Source: Chloroflexota bacterium
GTDB lineage: Bacteria > Chloroflexota > Dehalococcoidia > JACPEP01
DNA length: 37,120 bases
Direction of reading: 5' to 3'
Assembly (NCBI GenBank): GCA_016183425.1
Contig: JACPEP010000052.1
Location: 1-37,120 of the forward strand
The stretch's first letter is position 1; the number at the start of each line of letters is the position of its first letter. The notes under the pieces are model-generated. The model searched no databases. It had not been told where the DNA came from and was given only the letters and a program-made list of their open reading frames with translations. Shown piece after piece: positions 25,082 to 31,947 of the stretch. A program made the translations under genes and the position numbers.

Positions 25082-27178
25082 ATGAGGCTTTTATTCGCAT
25101 TAGGGGTGGTTGTGGTGTGGGCGGCCCTGATGGTGGGCGTTACCAAAATGGACGTGCCCCGTGCATCTGCTTTGGTCAGTGGCGATACAACTGATACCCC
25201 TAATGCTCCCGGCTTCATCCTGGAGGATAAAGGGTTATTGGATACCCCACACCTAGGTGTGGGGTATCCAGCCCCACCCCCCGCCCCCCTGGCCGCCTCT
25301 GTCATCACCGGGCCCGTGGTCGAGGCCTGGGTAGCCCGCTACAACGGGCCGGGGAGCGGCTCCGACGGGGCCCAGGCCCTGGCGGTGGACTCTTCGGGGA
25401 ACGTCTACGTCACAGGTTACTCCCTCGGCTCCGGGACGGGTTACGACTACGCCACGCTGAAATACGACTCAGGGGGCAACCAGATCTGGGCCGCCCGCTA
25501 CAACGGGCCAGGGAACGACTACGAATATGCTAATGCTCTGGTGGTGGACGGGGCGGGGAACGTCTACGTCACAGGGCGATCCCCGGGCGCCGGGACGAGT
25601 GACGACTACGCCACGCTGAAGTATGACGCTAATGGCAATCAACTATGGGTCGCCCGCTACAACGGGCCAGGGAACGGCAGCGACTATGCCAACGCCCTGG
25701 CGGTAGACATTACGGGGAATGTCTATGTGACCGGGTACTCCTCCAGCTCTGGCACTGGCTCCGACTACGCCACGGTGAAGTACGACTCAAGCGGCAGCCA
25801 GCTCTGGGCGGCCCGCTACAACGGGCCAGGGAACATCGGCGACTGGGCCTATGCCCTGGCGGTGGACGAGGCGGGGAACGTCTACATCACAGGGTCGTCC
25901 ACGGGCGCTGAGACGAGTTCCGACTACGCCACGGTGAAGTACGACTCAGGGGGCAACCAGCTCTGGGTGGCCCGCTACAATGGGCCGGGAAACAGTGGTG
26001 ATAACGCCTATGCCCTGGCGGTGGACATCTCAGGCAACGTCTATGTCACCGGGGAGTCCACAGGCGCCGGGACGAGTTCTGACTACGCCACGGTGAAGTA
26101 CGACTCAGGGGGCAACCAGCTCTGGGTGGCCCGCTACAACGGGCCGGGAACAAGTTACGACTACGCCTCCGCCTTGGAGATGGACTCTTCAGGGAACGTG
26201 TACGTCGCTGGGAACTCCTCCTGCTGTACCTATAATGACTACGCTACTGTCAAATATGACACCAATGGCAACCAGCTCTGGGCTGCCCACTACGACGGGC
26301 CAGTATACGATTGGGCAAAAGCCTTGGCCCTGGCGGTGGACGCTTCGGGGAACGTCTACGTCACCGGGTCGTCCAACAATGGCGTCGGGACGAGATACGA
26401 CTACGCCACGGTAAAGTATGATGCCAACGGCAACCAGCTCTGGGCGGCCCGCTTCAACGAGCCCGGTAACGATCACGACAGGGCCTCCGCCTTGGCGGTG
26501 GACTCTTCGAGGAACGTCTACGTCACCGGGTACTCCGTGGGCTCCGGGACGAGTAGGGACTACGCCACGCTAAAGTACGACTCAGGGGGCAACCAGCTTT
26601 GGGTGGCCCGCTACAACGGGCCAGGTGGCGGCTACGACGCGGCCCTGGCCCTAGCGGTGGACTCTTCGGGGAACGTCTACGTCACCGGCTACTCTCTAGG
26701 CTCCGGCACCGGCTACGATTACGCCACCATCAAATATATTCCCCTGGATGGTCAGATGCGGGGGCAGGTCCGCCTTCAAGGGCGCTCCAACCACGGCGGA
26801 GTGACAGTCACTCTCCAGGGCAGCGCCTATACCGCCACTACCGATGCCAGCGGCGCTTTCACCTTCACCAGCGTCGTATCTGGCACCTACACCGCCACCG
26901 CCGTCATGCCCGGCTACCTCTACGCCCGGCGCACCGGGGTGGTGGTGACGGCAGGGGTGACCACCACCTTGCCTTCGGTCAAGCTCCTGGGCGGCGATGC
27001 CGATAGAGATGGCGACGTGGACATCAATGACCTGACGCTTCTGGGGGCTAGCTTCGGCCTTGCCGTCCCCCCCGCTGACCCCAGGGCGGACATAAACGGC
27101 GATGGTTCGGTAAACATCTACGACATCGTTCTGGTGGGGACGAACTTTGGCAAAGCGGCTCCTACTCCCTGGCCCTAG
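25082..27178 (+). CDS. Secreted nine-repeat beta-propeller protein with dockerin domain
   Basis: A 698-residue exported protein. An N-terminal signal-like segment (LLFALGVVVVWAALMVGV, then ASA) is followed by a short linker containing a palindrome-encoded stretch. Residues 84-552 hold nine repeats of about 52 residues with the pattern ARYNGPG...ALAVD.SGNVYVTG.S...DYATLKYD.GGNQLW, an SBBP-type beta-propeller blade. Residues ~557-632 resemble a carboxypeptidase-regulatory-like beta-sandwich (GQVRLQGRSNHGGVTVTL...DASGAFTFTSV). The C-terminus (about 636-690) is a type I dockerin with two calcium loops, DADRDGDVDINDL and DINGDGSVNIYDI. It is likely to be an extracellular or surface binding protein held through a cohesin or by calcium-dependent folding; no cohesin gene is in the window. 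Confidence 0.87.
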   Translation: MRLLFALGVVVVWAALMVGVTKMDVPRASALVSGDTTDTPNAPGFILEDKGLLDTPHLGVGYPAPPPAPLAASVITGPVVEAWVARYNGPGSGSDGAQALAVDSSGNVYVTGYSLGSGTGYDYATLKYDSGGNQIWAARYNGPGNDYEYANALVVDGAGNVYVTGRSPGAGTSDDYATLKYDANGNQLWVARYNGPGNGSDYANALAVDITGNVYVTGYSSSSGTGSDYATVKYDSSGSQLWAARYNGPGNIGDWAYALAVDEAGNVYITGSSTGAETSSDYATVKYDSGGNQLWVARYNGPGNSGDNAYALAVDISGNVYVTGESTGAGTSSDYATVKYDSGGNQLWVARYNGPGTSYDYASALEMDSSGNVYVAGNSSCCTYNDYATVKYDTNGNQLWAAHYDGPVYDWAKALALAVDASGNVYVTGSSNNGVGTRYDYATVKYDANGNQLWAARFNEPGNDHDRASALAVDSSRNVYVTGYSVGSGTSRDYATLKYDSGGNQLWVARYNGPGGGYDAALALAVDSSGNVYVTGYSLGSGTGYDYATIKYIPLDGQMRGQVRLQGRSNHGGVTVTLQGSAYTATTDASGAFTFTSVVSGTYTATAVMPGYLYARRTGVVVTAGVTTTLPSVKLLGGDADRDGDVDINDLTLLGASFGLAVPPADPRADINGDGSVNIYDIVLVGTNFGKAAPTPWP
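25239..25270. repeat. Perfect 32-bp palindrome inside the beta-propeller gene
   Basis: Every base from 25239 to 25254 pairs with 25255 to 25270; the centre is CCTAGG. It lies in the linker between signal peptide and propeller and is read in frame as LLDTPHLGVGYPA. As RNA it would make a strong hairpin in the coding sequence. Confidence 0.9.
25331..26737 (+). repeat. Nine in-frame tandem repeats of about 156 bp
   Basis: Nine units encode the propeller blades. DNA between units is very similar in long blocks (for example GGCAACCAGCTCTGGG recurs), pointing to recent expansion or conversion. Unit 6 is unusual in carrying SSCCTYN. Confidence 0.85.
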
Positions 27179-27208
27179 TCTCCATCCCCCAGCCACCGCT
27201 TGAGAGAC

Positions 27209-27650
27209 GCTTCTCCGCCTCCGGCGGATCAGCATGACATTGTGCCTTATGTCACCCTGAGCAGAGCGAAGGGTCTGGCGGGGGGTCATACCAAGCCTCA
27301 CGCAGGTCTCTAATGACCCGTCCCCACCCCAGATGCTTCTCCGCCTCCGGCAGATCAGCATGACATTGTGTCTTATGTCACCCTGAGCAGAGCGAAGGGT
27401 CTGGCGGGGGGGTCATACCAAACCTCACCCAGGTCTCTAACGACCCGTCCCCACCCCAGATGCTTCTCCGCCTCCGGCAGATCAGCATGACATTGTGCCT
27501 TATGTCACCCTGAGCAGAGCGAAGGGTCTGGCGGGGGGTCATACCAAACCTCACCCAGGTCTCTAATGACCCGTCCCCACCCCAGATGCTTCTCCGCCTC
27601 CGGCAGACTTCTCCCCGCCATAGGCGGAGATCAGCATGACGTAGCCCTTC
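27209..27650. repeat. Tandem 126-127-bp repeats (three full, one partial)
   Basis: Units start at 27209, 27335, 27462 and 27588, each with GCTTCTCCGCCTCCGGC. Each contains TGTCACCCTGAGCAGAGCG and ends near CCCCACCCCAGAT. The fourth is cut short and merges with the 27-bp repeat. The gap 27179-27797 holds no supportable gene; frames crossing the units on the minus strand are repeat artefacts. Confidence 0.85.
27608..27634 (-). repeat. 27-bp inverted-pair repeat, right copy
   Basis: Exact reverse complement of 24913-24939. It interrupts the last partial 126-bp unit. Confidence 0.75.
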
Positions 27651-27730: not shown

Positions 27731-27759
27731 TGTACAGAATGCCCGGGGTGGGTTATAAT
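27731..27759 (+). promoter_or_regulatory. Promoter of the decarboxylase/AOR operon
   Basis: TGTACA (27731-27736) and a perfect TATAAT (27754-27759) are 17 bp apart. The start would be near 27766, giving a leader of about 30 bases before the class II aldolase gene. Confidence 0.68.
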
Positions 27760-27797: not shown

Positions 27798-28499
27798 ATG
27801 GTGGAAGAGGAGCTGAAGACCAAGACCGCCCTCTGCTGCCACCTTATGGAGGCGGTGGGCCTCATCAACTACGACGGCCACGTCAGCGCCCGCATTCCGG
27901 GCACGGACCGCATCGTCATCAACGCCCGCGCCCGGGGACGGGCTACACTGGAGGCCAAAGATATGGTGGTGATAGACCTGGAGGGGAAGGGGGAGGCGGG
28001 GGCCATGGAGCCGCCGGGGGAGACCCCCATCCATACCAGCATCTATCGCCAAAGGGAGGATGTGGACTGCGTGGCCCACCTCCACCCCCACTACAGCACC
28101 CTCCTCAGCATCGCCGGGCACGCCGTGGAGCCTGTCTTCTTCCTGGGGACGTCCCTGGGGCCGGTCCCCGTCTTCGCTGAGCCGGGGCATGTCTATACCC
28201 GGGCCCAGGGCCAGGCCCTGGCAGAGACCCTGGGCCAGCATCGGGCGGTGCTCATCCGAGGACACGGCTCGGTGGTGGTGGGGGGAAGCATCGAGGAGGT
28301 CTTCGTCCTTGCCATCTACATGGAGGAGAATTGCAAGAAGCAGTACTACGCCTCCCTCCTTGGCCCGCCCCGCGTCATCACGTCTCAAGAGGTGGAAAGA
28401 GTGGCTCCCCAGGTCTGGAAGCCGTCCTCGGTAGCCAAGGTGTGGAACTACTACGTGGAGAAGTATCGCGCCGGTCTTCTGACAGCGCCGCCCCTGTAA
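27798..28499 (+). CDS. Class II aldolase/adducin family protein
   Basis: A 233-residue zinc aldolase-type protein. The family residues are visible: PGETPIHTSIY with the catalytic-type glutamate, HLHPHYS giving two zinc-binding histidines, and RGHGSVVVGG giving the third. Relatives cleave or epimerise sugar phosphates such as fuculose-1-phosphate or ribulose-5-phosphate, and some decarboxylate. The substrate is unknown. An AGAGGTAG site precedes the ATG, and there is a good promoter 40 bp upstream. It is the first of five closely spaced genes; the next starts 12 bp after its stop. Confidence 0.9.
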   Translation: MVEEELKTKTALCCHLMEAVGLINYDGHVSARIPGTDRIVINARARGRATLEAKDMVVIDLEGKGEAGAMEPPGETPIHTSIYRQREDVDCVAHLHPHYSTLLSIAGHAVEPVFFLGTSLGPVPVFAEPGHVYTRAQGQALAETLGQHRAVLIRGHGSVVVGGSIEEVFVLAIYMEENCKKQYYASLLGPPRVITSQEVERVAPQVWKPSSVAKVWNYYVEKYRAGLLTAPPL

Positions 28500-28511
28500 G
28501 AGCGCCTCACT

Positions 28512-29012
28512 GTGAAGATTGCCATTGCTCAGGAGATAGTCTCCGGCCTCAAGGAGGCCGGCATCACCTTCGTATGCTATCTTCCCGATTCCTGGCTCAA
28601 AGAGGTCTACCAGTTGGTGACAGAAGACCCCCACTTTCAGGCGGTGCTGGTGACCAACGAGGGAGAAGGGGTGGCGGTTTGCGCCGGGGCGTGGCTGGGG
28701 GGCAAGGGGGCGGCTATGATCATGGAGAACTCCGGCCTGCGGGTGGCCAGCGAGGCCCTGGCCCGCCTGGGATTGGGCCATGGCATCCCCGTCTTCCTGG
28801 TCATGAGCTATCGAGGCGATCTGGGGGATCGAGACTGGTGGGCTCAGCCCCACGGCTGGACTACGGAGCCCATGCTCCAGGCGCTGCGAATCCCCTACCG
28901 AGTGATGCGACGACCGGAGGAGATTCGCTCCGTGATGGCGCTGGCCCAGGACACTTTAGACTCCTCTAAGCTGCCCGTGGCAGTGCTGGTGGGACGGGAG
29001 CTGTGTCTATGA
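28512..29012 (+). CDS. TPP-dependent 2-oxo acid decarboxylase, alpha (pyrimidine-binding) subunit
   Basis: A 166-residue protein like the alpha subunit of sulfopyruvate/phosphonopyruvate decarboxylases (ComD type). The segment VTNEGEGVAVCAGAWLGGKGAAMIMENSGL carries the conserved glutamate that activates thiamine diphosphate. On its own it lacks the diphosphate-binding domain, which is provided by the next gene. Together they should decarboxylate a 2-oxo acid to an aldehyde. It starts at GTG and overlaps the beta subunit by 4 bp (ATGA). The actual substrate is not shown; sulfopyruvate, phosphonopyruvate and other 2-oxo acids are candidates. Confidence 0.86.
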   Translation: MKIAIAQEIVSGLKEAGITFVCYLPDSWLKEVYQLVTEDPHFQAVLVTNEGEGVAVCAGAWLGGKGAAMIMENSGLRVASEALARLGLGHGIPVFLVMSYRGDLGDRDWWAQPHGWTTEPMLQALRIPYRVMRRPEEIRSVMALAQDTLDSSKLPVAVLVGRELCL

Positions 29013-29611
29013 AGCGATACCAATGTCTTCAGGTCCTGGCTCCCCTCATTACCCAAGAGTTGGTCATTGTCTCCCTGGGCGGCACCGGCCTGGAGTGGCA
29101 CGCCATCAAGCCCCGTGACGCCAACCTGTATCTCATCGCCATGGGGTGCAACACCTCGGTGGGGCTGGGGCTGGCTCTGGCCCTTCCCCACCGGCGGGTG
29201 GTGGTGCTGGAGACGGACGGCAGCCTCCTCCTCAACCTGGGGGCCCTGGCCACAGTGGCCGTCCAGCGCCCCCCCAACCTGGCTATCTTCGTCTTCGACA
29301 ACGAGGGCTATGAACGGGTGGGAGGCCTTCCCGGCGTCACCGGGCGGGGCGTAGACCTGGCGGCCATAGCCCAGGGCGCCGGCATCGCCAACTCCAGAAC
29401 AGTGACCAACCGGGAAGACTTCGCCGTCGCCGCCAGGGAAGCCATGTCCAAAAGAGAGCTATCGGTCACCGTGACCAAGGTGGAGATGGGCATTGAGCCG
29501 GTGCCGGGACGGGCCTCCGATGGTCTGGAAGACAAATATCGCTTCGTCCGCCATATTGAGGAACTGGAGGGCCGCCCTATCCTCTCCGGCTACCGATACA
29601 AGCTGGATTAG
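29009..29611 (+). CDS. TPP-dependent 2-oxo acid decarboxylase, beta (diphosphate-binding) subunit
   Basis: A 200-residue ComE-like subunit. The thiamine diphosphate/Mg motif runs from ETDGSLLLNLG to DNEGYER, the family's GDG-x(25-30)-N(N/E) pattern with TDG in place of GDG. The segment NLYLIAMGCNTSVGLGLALALP is typical of this half. The start is the ATG at 29009 overlapping the alpha stop; a GTG two codons earlier is possible but coupling favours the ATG. The pairing with the alpha subunit, an AOR and a MoaD-like gene suggests the aldehyde product is passed to the AOR. Confidence 0.86.
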   Translation: MKRYQCLQVLAPLITQELVIVSLGGTGLEWHAIKPRDANLYLIAMGCNTSVGLGLALALPHRRVVVLETDGSLLLNLGALATVAVQRPPNLAIFVFDNEGYERVGGLPGVTGRGVDLAAIAQGAGIANSRTVTNREDFAVAAREAMSKRELSVTVTKVEMGIEPVPGRASDGLEDKYRFVRHIEELEGRPILSGYRYKLD

Positions 29612-29621
29612 GCATCGCGCC

Positions 29622-29939
29622 ATGGCGGTCACCGTAAGATTGCCCCAACTCTTGGCTCAGAGAGCGGGCTCACAGGTAGTTGCTCTGCCCGAGAGCGATT
29701 CCTTGGCTACCTTAGGGGATGTGCTGACTCAATTGTGCCTCGGCCACCCGGAGCTGCGCAGCCATCTCTATGATGAAGATGGCCAGGTGGACATTCACTA
29801 CCTCCTTTTCATTAATGGGCAGCACGTTTCTTCCGAGGACATGGCGAGGACGCCGGTAGAAGAAGGCGCTCAGGTGGATATCCTCATGCCTTTAGCGGGC
29901 GGGTATATCCAGTCACTTGGGGAGGGCGATGAGACATGA
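29622..29939 (+). CDS. MoaD/ThiS-like protein with extension past Gly-Gly
   Basis: A 105-residue ubiquitin-fold sulfur-carrier-like protein. The MoaD pattern is visible: VTVRLPQLLAQRAG at the start, a helix DVLTQLCLGHPELRS, YLLFINGQHV, and EGAQVDILMPLAGG near the end. In classical MoaD the Gly-Gly must be the last two residues so that it can be adenylated and thiolated; here G93-G94 are followed by eleven more residues (YIQSLGEGDET). It would need trimming, or it has another role. Its stop overlaps the AOR start by 4 bp. It lies next to a molybdo/tungstopterin enzyme, which supports a cofactor role. The start at 29622 fits the domain. Confidence 0.82.
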   Translation: MAVTVRLPQLLAQRAGSQVVALPESDSLATLGDVLTQLCLGHPELRSHLYDEDGQVDIHYLLFINGQHVSSEDMARTPVEEGAQVDILMPLAGGYIQSLGEGDET

Positions 29940-31786
29940 CCTGGAGCCCCGGCGTTACCGCCTATATTGACCTCACTACGGGCCACATTTCTCCCTTCTT
30001 AACGCCGCTGCCCCTGGTGCGAAAATTCCTGGGGGGGCGGGGGCTAAACATGTACTATCTGGCCAAACACCTGGCCCCCGGCACAGATCCCTTTTCTCCC
30101 GACAACCCGCTCATATTTGGCGCGGGGTTAGTGACCGGTACCCTGGTGCCCAACGCCAGTCGCTGCAACGTCTCCGCCCGGTCGCCAGAGGCCTGGGGGC
30201 TGGGAGACGCCAACTTCGGCGGCTTCTTTGGCGCCGCCATGCGGTCCGCCGGCTTCGACCGCCTGATCATCACCGGCCATTCCCCCCAGCCCTGCTACAT
30301 ATACCTGGATGACGGCCGGGTGGAGCTTCGGCCAGCGGCGGCCTATTGGGGCCTCAATACCAGGGCGACCCAAGAGCAGCTACGAAAAGACCTGGGGCCG
30401 GGGGTCCAGGTAGCCTGTATCGGCACCGCTGGCGAGAACCGGGTTCGTTTCGCCGCCATCATCAACGGCCTCAAGAATGCCGCCGGTCGGGGCGGTATGG
30501 GGGCGGTGATGGGATCTAAAAACCTGAAGGCGGTAGTGGCCCGGGGTGGCCACGGCGTGCCCGTAGCCGACAAGGACGGACTCATTAGGGAGCGCCGTTC
30601 GTTGACGGAGTATCTACAGAAGTCGAAGGTAGTTCAGGTGCTCGGCACCTACGGCACCCCCTTCCTCTATGAGCCTAGCAATACGTTGGGGACCATCCGC
30701 ACCCACAACAGCCAGCTCAACGCCTTTTCCCCTCGCCTCAATGCCTCTTACTTCAAAGAGTACAGCCGGGGGATGACCTCCTGCTTTGGCTGCGTCGTCC
30801 ACTGCCGCCACCGAAACACCCTGGGAGGGGAAGGGCCGGAGTACTCCACCCTGGGCTCCCTGGGTGCCAACTGCGGCATCGACGACGTCGGGGAGGTAGT
30901 TCGCCTCAACAATCTGGTCAACGACCTGGGCCTGGACGCCTCCTCCGCAGGGGGCATCATTGCCTGGGCCATAGAGCTCTATCAGAGGGGAATCATCGAC
31001 AAAGAACTGACAGAGCGAGAGCTTACCTACGGCGATGCCCATCTGGTGACCTCTTTGATTGAGGACATCGCGGCCCGTCGCGGATTTGGCAACGCCCTGG
31101 CGGAGAGCAGCCGAGCCACCGACATTTTCGGCCCGGAATCCCTGGACTACCTTCCCGCCATCAAGGGATTGCCCCAGTCGGACCCCCACGATTGCCGCTA
31201 TATCAAAAGCTTTGCTCTGGGCATCGCCGTCGCCTCCCGGGGCGCCGACCACCTGCGTAACCGTCCCACTCTGGACATCTTCTCCTTTCCCGCCCCCCTC
31301 CTCAGGGAGATATACGGCACGGACATCGACCCCGACCCCACCTCTTACCGAACCAAGGAGGTGATGGTGGCCTACCACGAGGACATCTATGCCGTGGTGG
31401 ACTCTTTAGGAATATGCAAGTTCGTCTGTCATGGCTTCAACAGTCCTCACCTCCTCAAACACTCCCATTTCCGCGACATCATCCGTCTGGTCACTGGCCT
31501 GGACTTTTCTCCCCAGGAGCTGGACAGCATAGGCAAGCGCATCGTCGACCTGGAACGTTATGTAAACCACCGCCAGGGGCTGGGGCACCGAGAGGATACT
31601 CTCCCGCGGCGATACTTTGAGGATGAGATGCCCCTGGGCTTTGCCCAGGGGCATCTCATCCATAGAGCTCAGTTCCAGGCTCTTCTCAGCCGCTACTATG
31701 CCCTTCGGGGTTGGGATGAGGAGGGGAGGCTGTCGCCGGAGCGAGGGGCGGAGCTGGAAGGGCTGCTGATAGGAAACAAGGAGTAG
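29936..31786 (+). CDS. Aldehyde ferredoxin oxidoreductase family protein
   Basis: A 616-residue AOR-family enzyme. These use a bis-pterin tungsten (or molybdenum) centre and a [4Fe-4S] cluster to oxidise aldehydes to carboxylic acids with ferredoxin. The N-terminal domain shows LVRKFLGGRGLNMYYLAKH and ANFGGFFGAAMRSAGFD; the cluster ligands are in SCFGCVVHC and a later DSLGICKFVC. The conserved KGLPQSDPHDCRYIKSFALGIAVASRGADHLR segment is present. Its length matches the family. It is the last gene of the operon and is likely to accept the aldehyde made by the TPP decarboxylase. A perfect 19-bp inverted repeat lies in its last 170 bases. The specific aldehyde cannot be named. Confidence 0.93.
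   Translation: MTWSPGVTAYIDLTTGHISPFLTPLPLVRKFLGGRGLNMYYLAKHLAPGTDPFSPDNPLIFGAGLVTGTLVPNASRCNVSARSPEAWGLGDANFGGFFGAAMRSAGFDRLIITGHSPQPCYIYLDDGRVELRPAAAYWGLNTRATQEQLRKDLGPGVQVACIGTAGENRVRFAAIINGLKNAAGRGGMGAVMGSKNLKAVVARGGHGVPVADKDGLIRERRSLTEYLQKSKVVQVLGTYGTPFLYEPSNTLGTIRTHNSQLNAFSPRLNASYFKEYSRGMTSCFGCVVHCRHRNTLGGEGPEYSTLGSLGANCGIDDVGEVVRLNNLVNDLGLDASSAGGIIAWAIELYQRGIIDKELTERELTYGDAHLVTSLIEDIAARRGFGNALAESSRATDIFGPESLDYLPAIKGLPQSDPHDCRYIKSFALGIAVASRGADHLRNRPTLDIFSFPAPLLREIYGTDIDPDPTSYRTKEVMVAYHEDIYAVVDSLGICKFVCHGFNSPHLLKHSHFRDIIRLVTGLDFSPQELDSIGKRIVDLERYVNHRQGLGHREDTLPRRYFEDEMPLGFAQGHLIHRAQFQALLSRYYALRGWDEEGRLSPERGAELEGLLIGNKE
31621..31661. repeat. Perfect 19-bp inverted repeat in the AOR gene
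   Basis: Arms 31621-31639 and 31643-31661 are exact reverse complements around TTT. The region is read in frame as DEMPLGFAQGHLIH, at a place where AOR proteins normally have a similar segment, so it is not an obvious insertion. Confidence 0.9.
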
Positions 31787-31871: not shown

Positions 31872-31947
31872 GGGGATATAGCTCAATTGGGAGAGCGCGG
31901 CGTTCGCATCGCCGAGGTCGGGGGTTCGAATCCCCCTATCTCCACCA
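31872..31947 (+). tRNA. tRNA-Ala (anticodon CGC)
   Basis: Acceptor GGGGATA/TATCTCC, anticodon stem CGGCG/CGCCG with loop TTCGCAT, TTCGA T-loop, A73 and encoded CCA at 31945-31947. Confidence 0.95.

Follow-up and report, generated by a model that had tools for sequence, protein, structure and literature searches.

A five-gene operon with a two-subunit thiamine diphosphate decarboxylase and an atypical tungsten oxidoreductase in a Chloroflexota genome

Organization of the locus

Analysis of a 37,120-nucleotide stretch of DNA from a Chloroflexota bacterium of the class Dehalococcoidia (contig JACPEP010000052.1 of assembly GCA_016183425.1, hereafter the window) revealed five genes running in one direction between positions 27798 and 31786. 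They encode a class II aldolase-like protein, the alpha and beta subunits of a predicted thiamine diphosphate (TPP) decarboxylase, a ThiS/MoaD-like protein, and a tungsten oxidoreductase (WOR) of the aldehyde ferredoxin oxidoreductase (AOR) family in which two residues of the proposed aldehyde-oxidation mechanism are replaced. Contig C29, which makes up the window, belongs to a 2.70 Mb host genome (G000) that is 95% complete. The features are the following:

27798-28499, + strand: class II aldolase/adducin-like gene, 233 aa, Aldolase_II
28512-29012, + strand: TPP decarboxylase alpha gene (Pyr domain), 166 aa, GTG start
29009-29611, + strand: TPP decarboxylase beta gene (PP domain), 200 aa, TPP_enzyme_C
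29622-29939, + strand: ThiS/MoaD-like (WorX type) gene, 105 aa, ThiS
29936-31786, + strand: AOR/WOR large-subunit gene of an atypical clade, 616 aa, AFOR_N and AFOR_C
30845-30847, + strand: Ser304 codon of the WOR (PfAOR Glu313 position), from alignments to PDB chains
31178-31180, + strand: Ser415 codon of the WOR (PfAOR Tyr427 position), from alignments to PDB chains
27731-27759, + strand: sigma-70-like promoter match TGTACA-17-TATAAT, 10/12, no excess over shuffle

The tight packing described in the initial annotation is real, with gaps of 12 bp between the aldolase-like and TPP alpha genes and 10 bp between the TPP beta and ThiS-like genes. ATGA overlaps join TPP alpha to beta (29009-29012) and the ThiS-like gene to the WOR gene (29936-29939), so that two such overlaps are counted where three had been reported. 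The promoter that had been called clear is one of two 10/12 sites in the region, against a mean of 1.0 (standard deviation 1.2) after shuffling, and such a match does not bear out the word.

A tungsten oxidoreductase without Glu313 and Tyr427

The window WOR scores above the Pfam gathering score for both AFOR_N (237.1 bits) and AFOR_C (330.7 bits), and the cysteine motifs of the [4Fe-4S] cluster, CFGCVVHC and DSLGICKF, are intact in the alignments. Its residues were compared with the five best PDB alignments (1aor, 9mqx, 8c0z, 9g7j, and 1b25), a set outside which BamB and YdhV lie. Ser304 aligns with a glutamate in all five chains, corresponding to Glu313 of PfAOR, and Ser415 aligns with Tyr427 in 1aor and 9mqx, this stretch being less easily aligned in the remaining chains. 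The second-shell residues Thr243 and His448 are retained as Thr241 and His439.

The glutamate is carried by 37 of the 44 WOR sequences from the collected loci, and five of the seven that are without it are the window WOR and its nearest relatives. Combining the WORs of these loci with the top matches of a class-wide search defined a window clade of 25 members, a size that is a lower bound since the sequences were chosen as best matches to the window WOR. In a quick tree of 64 WOR sequences, the 25 form one branch with a support of 100 in the Shimodaira-Hasegawa-like approximate likelihood ratio test (SH-aLRT), the sole support measure used. Glu313 is absent from all 25 (12 Ser, 7 Thr, 3 Gly, 2 Tyr, 1 Ala) and no member has Tyr at the position of residue 427. 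The Thr243 position holds Thr in 24 members and Ser in one; on manual reading, His448 is aligned in 20 of the 25 and shifted or replaced in the other five.

Loss of WOR function is not favored: the reading frame is open, the Fe-S motifs are preserved, and the relatives at 61, 59, and 57% identity either show the same changes or have Thr in place of Glu. The 59% relative (genome G126) carries one in-frame TAG. The assignment to the AOR family of tungsten enzymes made in the initial annotation stands, while canonical aldehyde oxidation is weakened by the absence of Glu313 and Tyr427; judged from the alignments, this loss is the strongest result against simple aldehyde oxidation. As a separate observation, the WOR coding sequence contains a perfect 19-bp hairpin with a 3-base loop (31621-31661; folding z-score -7.2), which occurs once in the genome and at which the protein sequence of the WOR relatives differs.

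The TPP decarboxylase subunits

The alpha subunit contains the motifs NEGEG, ENSGLR, and RGDLGDRDWWAQPH, with a Pfam match under the cut-off (18.1 versus 26.8). The beta subunit matches TPP_enzyme_C above the gathering score (55.3 bits) and has the Mg-TPP motif TDG...N. The best NCBIfam matches are the alpha and beta subunits of sulfopyruvate decarboxylase, at 102 and 119.8 bits, both below their equivalog cut-offs of 147.95 and 221.5. The window alpha subunit and the seven relatives nearest to it in the alignment all have ENSGLR and a WWA motif. At the same site, ComD reads QNTAIG and AepY QNSGLG, whereas AzcB, from the two-subunit alpha-imino acid decarboxylase AzcB/AzcC of Streptomyces (9u8q, 9u8r, 9u8s), has ENSGLR together with WWGIPH; the window protein reads WWAxPH, within the AzcB-type WWxxPH pattern.

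A fold model of the alpha subunit (predicted local distance difference test, pLDDT, of 68) is as close to AzcB (Z 20.9, root mean square deviation 2.2 Å across 161 residues, 29% identity) as to RhiE (Z 20.7), and the motifs, as read from the alignments, decide between these two likenesses better than the fold match. In the alpha tree, AzcB falls in the same open group with a support of 91, but its branch, 2.17 long, is too long to trust. ComDE and RhiEF/AepY share the fold and the Glu of the NEGEG/KEDEG/SEAEA motif, and ComDE and RhiEF likewise consist of two subunits; they differ from the window proteins in the other motifs and in their equivalog cut-offs, which the window proteins do not reach. 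The two-subunit decarboxylase of the initial annotation is upheld, although sulfo- or phosphonopyruvate is not favored as its substrate, the ComD/phosphonopyruvate-type motifs being absent and AzcB-type ones present. Literature searches for AzcB, for 9U8Q, and for phosphonothrixin in combination with thiamine diphosphate found nothing on the enzyme.

The closest alpha relatives (57-60%) come from three Chloroflexota genomes of one family, in which a UbiD gene follows alpha/beta (by eye only at locus L177). Next come Blastococcus and Rhizobium-type plasmids, at 47-54% overall. The annotated Rhizobium cluster comprises TPP alpha, TPP beta, a GMC oxidoreductase, an amidohydrolase, a Rieske-type oxygenase, a molybdopterin enzyme, and an aldehyde dehydrogenase. 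The Blastococcus locus contains an NtaA/DmoA-type monooxygenase and an 8-oxoguanine deaminase above NCBIfam cut-offs and, by eye, an aldehyde dehydrogenase and a GMC oxidoreductase.

The class II aldolase-like protein

The first protein of the operon matches Pfam Aldolase_II above the gathering score (119.8 bits) and retains the acid and metal residues of FucA (Glu73, His92, His94, and His155). Five further FucA residues, N29, T43, G44, S71, and S72, which we take to form the phosphate site, are replaced by H, R, A, P, and G; these sites read N, T, G, S, S in E. coli FucA and N, S, G, S, S in AraD. Owing to the loss of the phosphate-site residues and the retention of the acid and metal residues, the protein is probably a decarboxylase-type enzyme or another lyase of non-phosphorylated substrates, and an aldolase acting on a non-phosphorylated substrate may be its alternative role. 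The decarboxylase-type members PhtC (3,4-dihydroxyphthalate decarboxylase) and Mlr6791 (2z7b), which presumably has decarboxylase activity, share the Glu and the metal His residues, and the motif GHxSAR is common to the window protein and 2z7b. PhtC is the second-best NCBIfam match, at 88.6 bits, below the cut-off of 200. A single-sequence fold had a pLDDT of 33 and was not used.

Plasmid relatives at 37-43% lie beside Rieske oxygenases, a cupin, and ABC transporters, and a relative at 33% lies beside a cupin and a fumarylacetoacetate hydrolase. The host genome has at least seven class II aldolase matches (all seven scored, among 11 candidates), and three paralogues in it form a run downstream of a UbiD gene and upstream of an XDH-like gene (by eye, with the UbiD confirmed). 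Given the loss of the FucA phosphate site, and with relatives located near ring-hydroxylating oxygenases, cupins, UbiD, and XDH-like genes, the earlier suggestion that aldol chemistry by this protein provides the oxo acid is not favored. A sugar-phosphate aldolase, including one of 5-deoxyribulose-type shunts, was considered and is likewise not favored, the phosphate-site residues being gone.

The ThiS/MoaD-like protein

The fourth protein scores 30.5 bits against a Pfam ThiS threshold of 22.5. Its Gly-Gly is followed by 11 further residues (YIQSLGEGDET; 29904-29936). Tails beyond the Gly-Gly also occur in genomes G090 (7 residues) and G023 (3 residues), so that members of this ThiS group may commonly be activated by proteolysis, and the single Prok-JAB peptidase gene of the host could be a candidate for trimming the tail. 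The copies of G390, G573, G109, and host contig C30 end in Gly-Gly. The last of these lies directly upstream of another host WOR (L188:7801-10108; G000:C30:123800-126107).

ThiS-like neighbors of Class I WORs have been named WorX (PMC13328260). As described there, such systems resemble the operon in having a lone WorL, an adjoining WorX, and no WorS; the operon differs in the replacement of Glu313 and Tyr427 by Ser, the 11 residues past the Gly-Gly, and the coupling to a TPP decarboxylase. Neither WorS nor WorN was found in the operon, which holds no further fitting open reading frame of at least 60 aa. The sequence supports the earlier claim of a MoaD-like partner in one operon with a two-subunit TPP decarboxylase and an AOR-family enzyme.

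Gene neighborhoods of related proteins

The 99 other genomes among the nearest relatives available are related to the host at class level only. The closest WOR relative (61%, G390) lies in a series of Amidohydro_2, IorA, IorB, HMGL-like, ThiS, WOR, UbiD, HAD hydrolase, and PEP-utilizer genes; the UbiD gene, downstream of WOR, is a phenylphosphate carboxylase beta gene (NCBIfam 523 versus a cut-off of 469), and IorA falls below its cut-off (625.8 versus 650.9). This arrangement would parallel the operon in one genome, with a C-C lyase, a two-subunit TPP enzyme, ThiS, and WOR, although the lyase and TPP families are other ones. The run from IorAB to the PEP-utilizer gene (L089:4619-16000) is possibly an anaerobic phenol/2-oxo acid module. 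In G126 (59%), there is a second WOR, and pyruvate-oxidoreductase-like subunits, an acyl-CoA ligase, and an ADP-forming acyl-CoA synthetase were recognized by eye, while G573 (57%) has a WorS-like gene and a ThiS protein with a Gly-Gly end.

Pairs of the operon's families recur. A class II aldolase gene lies 9 bp upstream of a 44% clade WOR on the same strand in G040 (L255:8123-10480), with neither TPP nor ThiS genes between them; the contig ends inside this aldolase, which is the closest relative of the window protein found (47% identity over 160 residues). TPP alpha/beta genes lie beside WOR on the same strand in G023, TPP beta is 98 bp upstream of WOR in G044, and TPP alpha/beta and WOR are divergent and 170 bp apart in G278. 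The WORs of these three genomes belong to branches other than the window clade, and their TPP neighbors support a link from decarboxylase to WOR. In G007, a WOR and TPP alpha/beta are about 7 kb apart; this case was left out of the count, and a region of G211 with UbiX (by eye), a 38% class II aldolase, and a 28% WOR on opposite strands was treated as weak. In G248 (L182), TPP alpha/beta occurs in one cluster with a 30% identical class II aldolase and a Rieske gene, functions again being assigned by eye.

Sixty-six TPP alpha neighborhoods (20, 40, and six of nine TPP or mixed regions) were scanned with window and context queries; L177 was left out as belonging to the same genus as L176, and L182 and L183 because they had been fetched for coinciding matches. 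UbiD occurs in three, XDH in six, Rieske oxygenases in two, an amidohydrolase in one, and an aldehyde dehydrogenase in one, the last count resting on one query.

The host genome has four AFOR_N matches, a COX1 gene, and 17 UbiD (PF01977) matches above the cut-off, for example at C17:101052, with five on C33 and three on C38. This number, unusual for 2.7 Mb, suggests heavy reversible decarboxylation of aromatic or acrylic acids, and favors aromatic-type acids as the substrate of the operon. Dehalococcoidia have been proposed to degrade aromatic compounds (PMC10570749). Around the operon, the flanking genes name no substrate: a beta-propeller repeat protein gene (25082-27178) lies upstream, and a tRNA-Ala(cgc) gene (31872-31947) followed by FKBP, CobB/CobQ-like, and succinyl-CoA ligase-like genes lies downstream. 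Just 5' of the operon, at 27205-27607, a sequence of about 127-150 bp occurs three times in direct orientation, with 97% likeness between two of the copies.

Interpretation of the operon

The explanation that we tentatively prefer, with limited confidence, is a catabolic operon whose TPP enzyme decarboxylates a 2-oxo (or 2-imino) acid and whose atypical Class I WOR oxidizes what is formed. The class II metalloenzyme would cleave a C-C bond of a non-phosphorylated oxo or hydroxy acid, most likely by decarboxylation, and the two-subunit TPP enzyme would form an aldehyde (or imine) from the 2-oxo (or 2-imino) acid by decarboxylation. The WOR would then pass two electrons from this product to ferredoxin, working with an altered second shell in which Thr and His are kept and Glu313 and Tyr427 are replaced by Ser, and WorX, once its tail is processed, would serve pterin cofactor assembly. 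Gene order, families, residue losses, and partial recurrence are read directly from the sequence; from them we infer the reactions, their order, ferredoxin as the acceptor, and an aromatic or heteroaromatic-type substrate. In favor of this explanation are the close packing of the genes; the TPP genes beside WORs of other branches (G023, G044, and G278); the G390 run around the 61% WOR relative, with its downstream phenylphosphate carboxylase beta gene; the UbiD genes after the nearest TPP relatives; the annotated aldehyde dehydrogenase of the Rhizobium clusters; the aldolase-WOR pair of G040; and, in the host itself, the 17 UbiD matches and the three class II aldolase paralogues near UbiD and XDH-like genes.

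Several results weigh against this explanation. Glu313 and Tyr427, second-shell residues of the proposed aldehyde oxidation, are both gone from the window WOR, so that the obvious reading of the pathway may be wrong. Glu313 is the proton acceptor in the mechanism proposed in PMC12096430, where it is described as retained in AOR, FOR, GAPOR, and ASOR. In the relevant passages of this review, the characterized aldehyde-oxidizing WOR clades have the residue. The same source reports the second-shell set as lost in BamB and YdhV, clades that its relevant passages do not present as aldehyde oxidases, and WOR4, with Tyr changed to Trp, as showing no activity. A WOR lies within 6.5 kb of TPP alpha in two of the 66 neighborhoods, none of which was chosen for a WOR, so that the TPP-WOR link is occasional and not a rule. 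Neither the window-type aldolase nor ThiS was found in any of the 66, many of which end at contig ends, with an E threshold of up to 1e-8 that can miss weak ThiS or aldolase relatives. The complete five-gene set, whose conservation had been proposed as a check and whose failure to co-occur elsewhere had been named as a refutation, was absent from every other neighborhood examined, whereas its TPP-WOR and aldolase-WOR pairs recur, and inside the operon there is no transporter or regulator to name the substrate.

One alternative is that the WOR is no aldehyde oxidase but a further non-canonical kind, performing a different step at low potential (a reduction, a hydroxylation, or a C-X cleavage) on a substrate of the two lyases. 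We regard this as possible but doubtful. Both residues are absent from all 25 members of a single branch with a support of 100, as they are from BamB, which does other chemistry, and YdhV (PMC12096430), and the 61% relative adjoins phenylphosphate carboxylase-type genes; however, the window WOR keeps Thr243 and His448, the expected TPP product is an aldehyde, and BamB and YdhV carry an extra Cys ligand. It is rather improbable that the genes form a catabolic mix without a linear pathway, sharing a promoter for acid and aldehyde housekeeping (detoxification) on separate substrates. Aldehyde detoxification is a frequent assignment for Class I WORs (PMC13328260), and the five-gene set is not conserved, but the genes overlap and the two pairs recur. 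The sulfo- or phosphonopyruvate-like substrates first suggested for the operon would fit a ComDE-type decarboxylation with canonical AOR oxidation and an oxo acid supplied by the aldolase. The best NCBIfam matches and the near structural match to RhiEF point that way, yet we consider it very unlikely, since QNTAIG and QNSGLG are absent and ENSGLR and WWAxPH present; in addition, both scores fall under the equivalog cut-offs, the AOR is without Glu313 and Tyr427, and the aldolase has lost its phosphate-site residues. A word search of the literature found no paper pairing sulfopyruvate decarboxylase with aldehyde ferredoxin oxidoreductase.

In the anaerobic phenylalanine oxidation of Aromatoleum aromaticum, a single-chain 2-oxo acid decarboxylase feeds a tungsten AOR, and we know of no class II aldolase-like gene in that pathway. 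The operon, on the preferred explanation, would work like this system, where the MoaD-like genes aorD and aorE accompany the AOR in the aor operon (PMC6365974); the A. aromaticum AOR differs in being three-subunit and NAD-linked. WORs have been divided into 92 clades, only five of which are stated to include an enzyme whose physiological role is defined (PMC13328260); the words 'thiamine', 'decarboxylase', and 'aldolase' do not occur in the main text of that source.

A bolder proposal, which we think somewhat unlikely, is that the window WOR and its 24 relatives are a further functional kind of WOR without the Glu313/Tyr427 acid-base pair, not (or not only) aldehyde-oxidizing. On this view the enzyme would be coupled here to a TPP-dependent 2-oxo/2-imino acid decarboxylase of the AzcBC type and to a class II aldolase of decarboxylase type, and the UbiD-rich host would break down aromatic or N-heterocyclic acids. 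With at least 25 members, all lacking the supposed catalytic Glu and spread over many genomes of one class, the clade would test whether aldehyde oxidation needs this Glu or a different reaction takes place, and the neighboring enzymes of the operon may offer a route to the WOR substrate.

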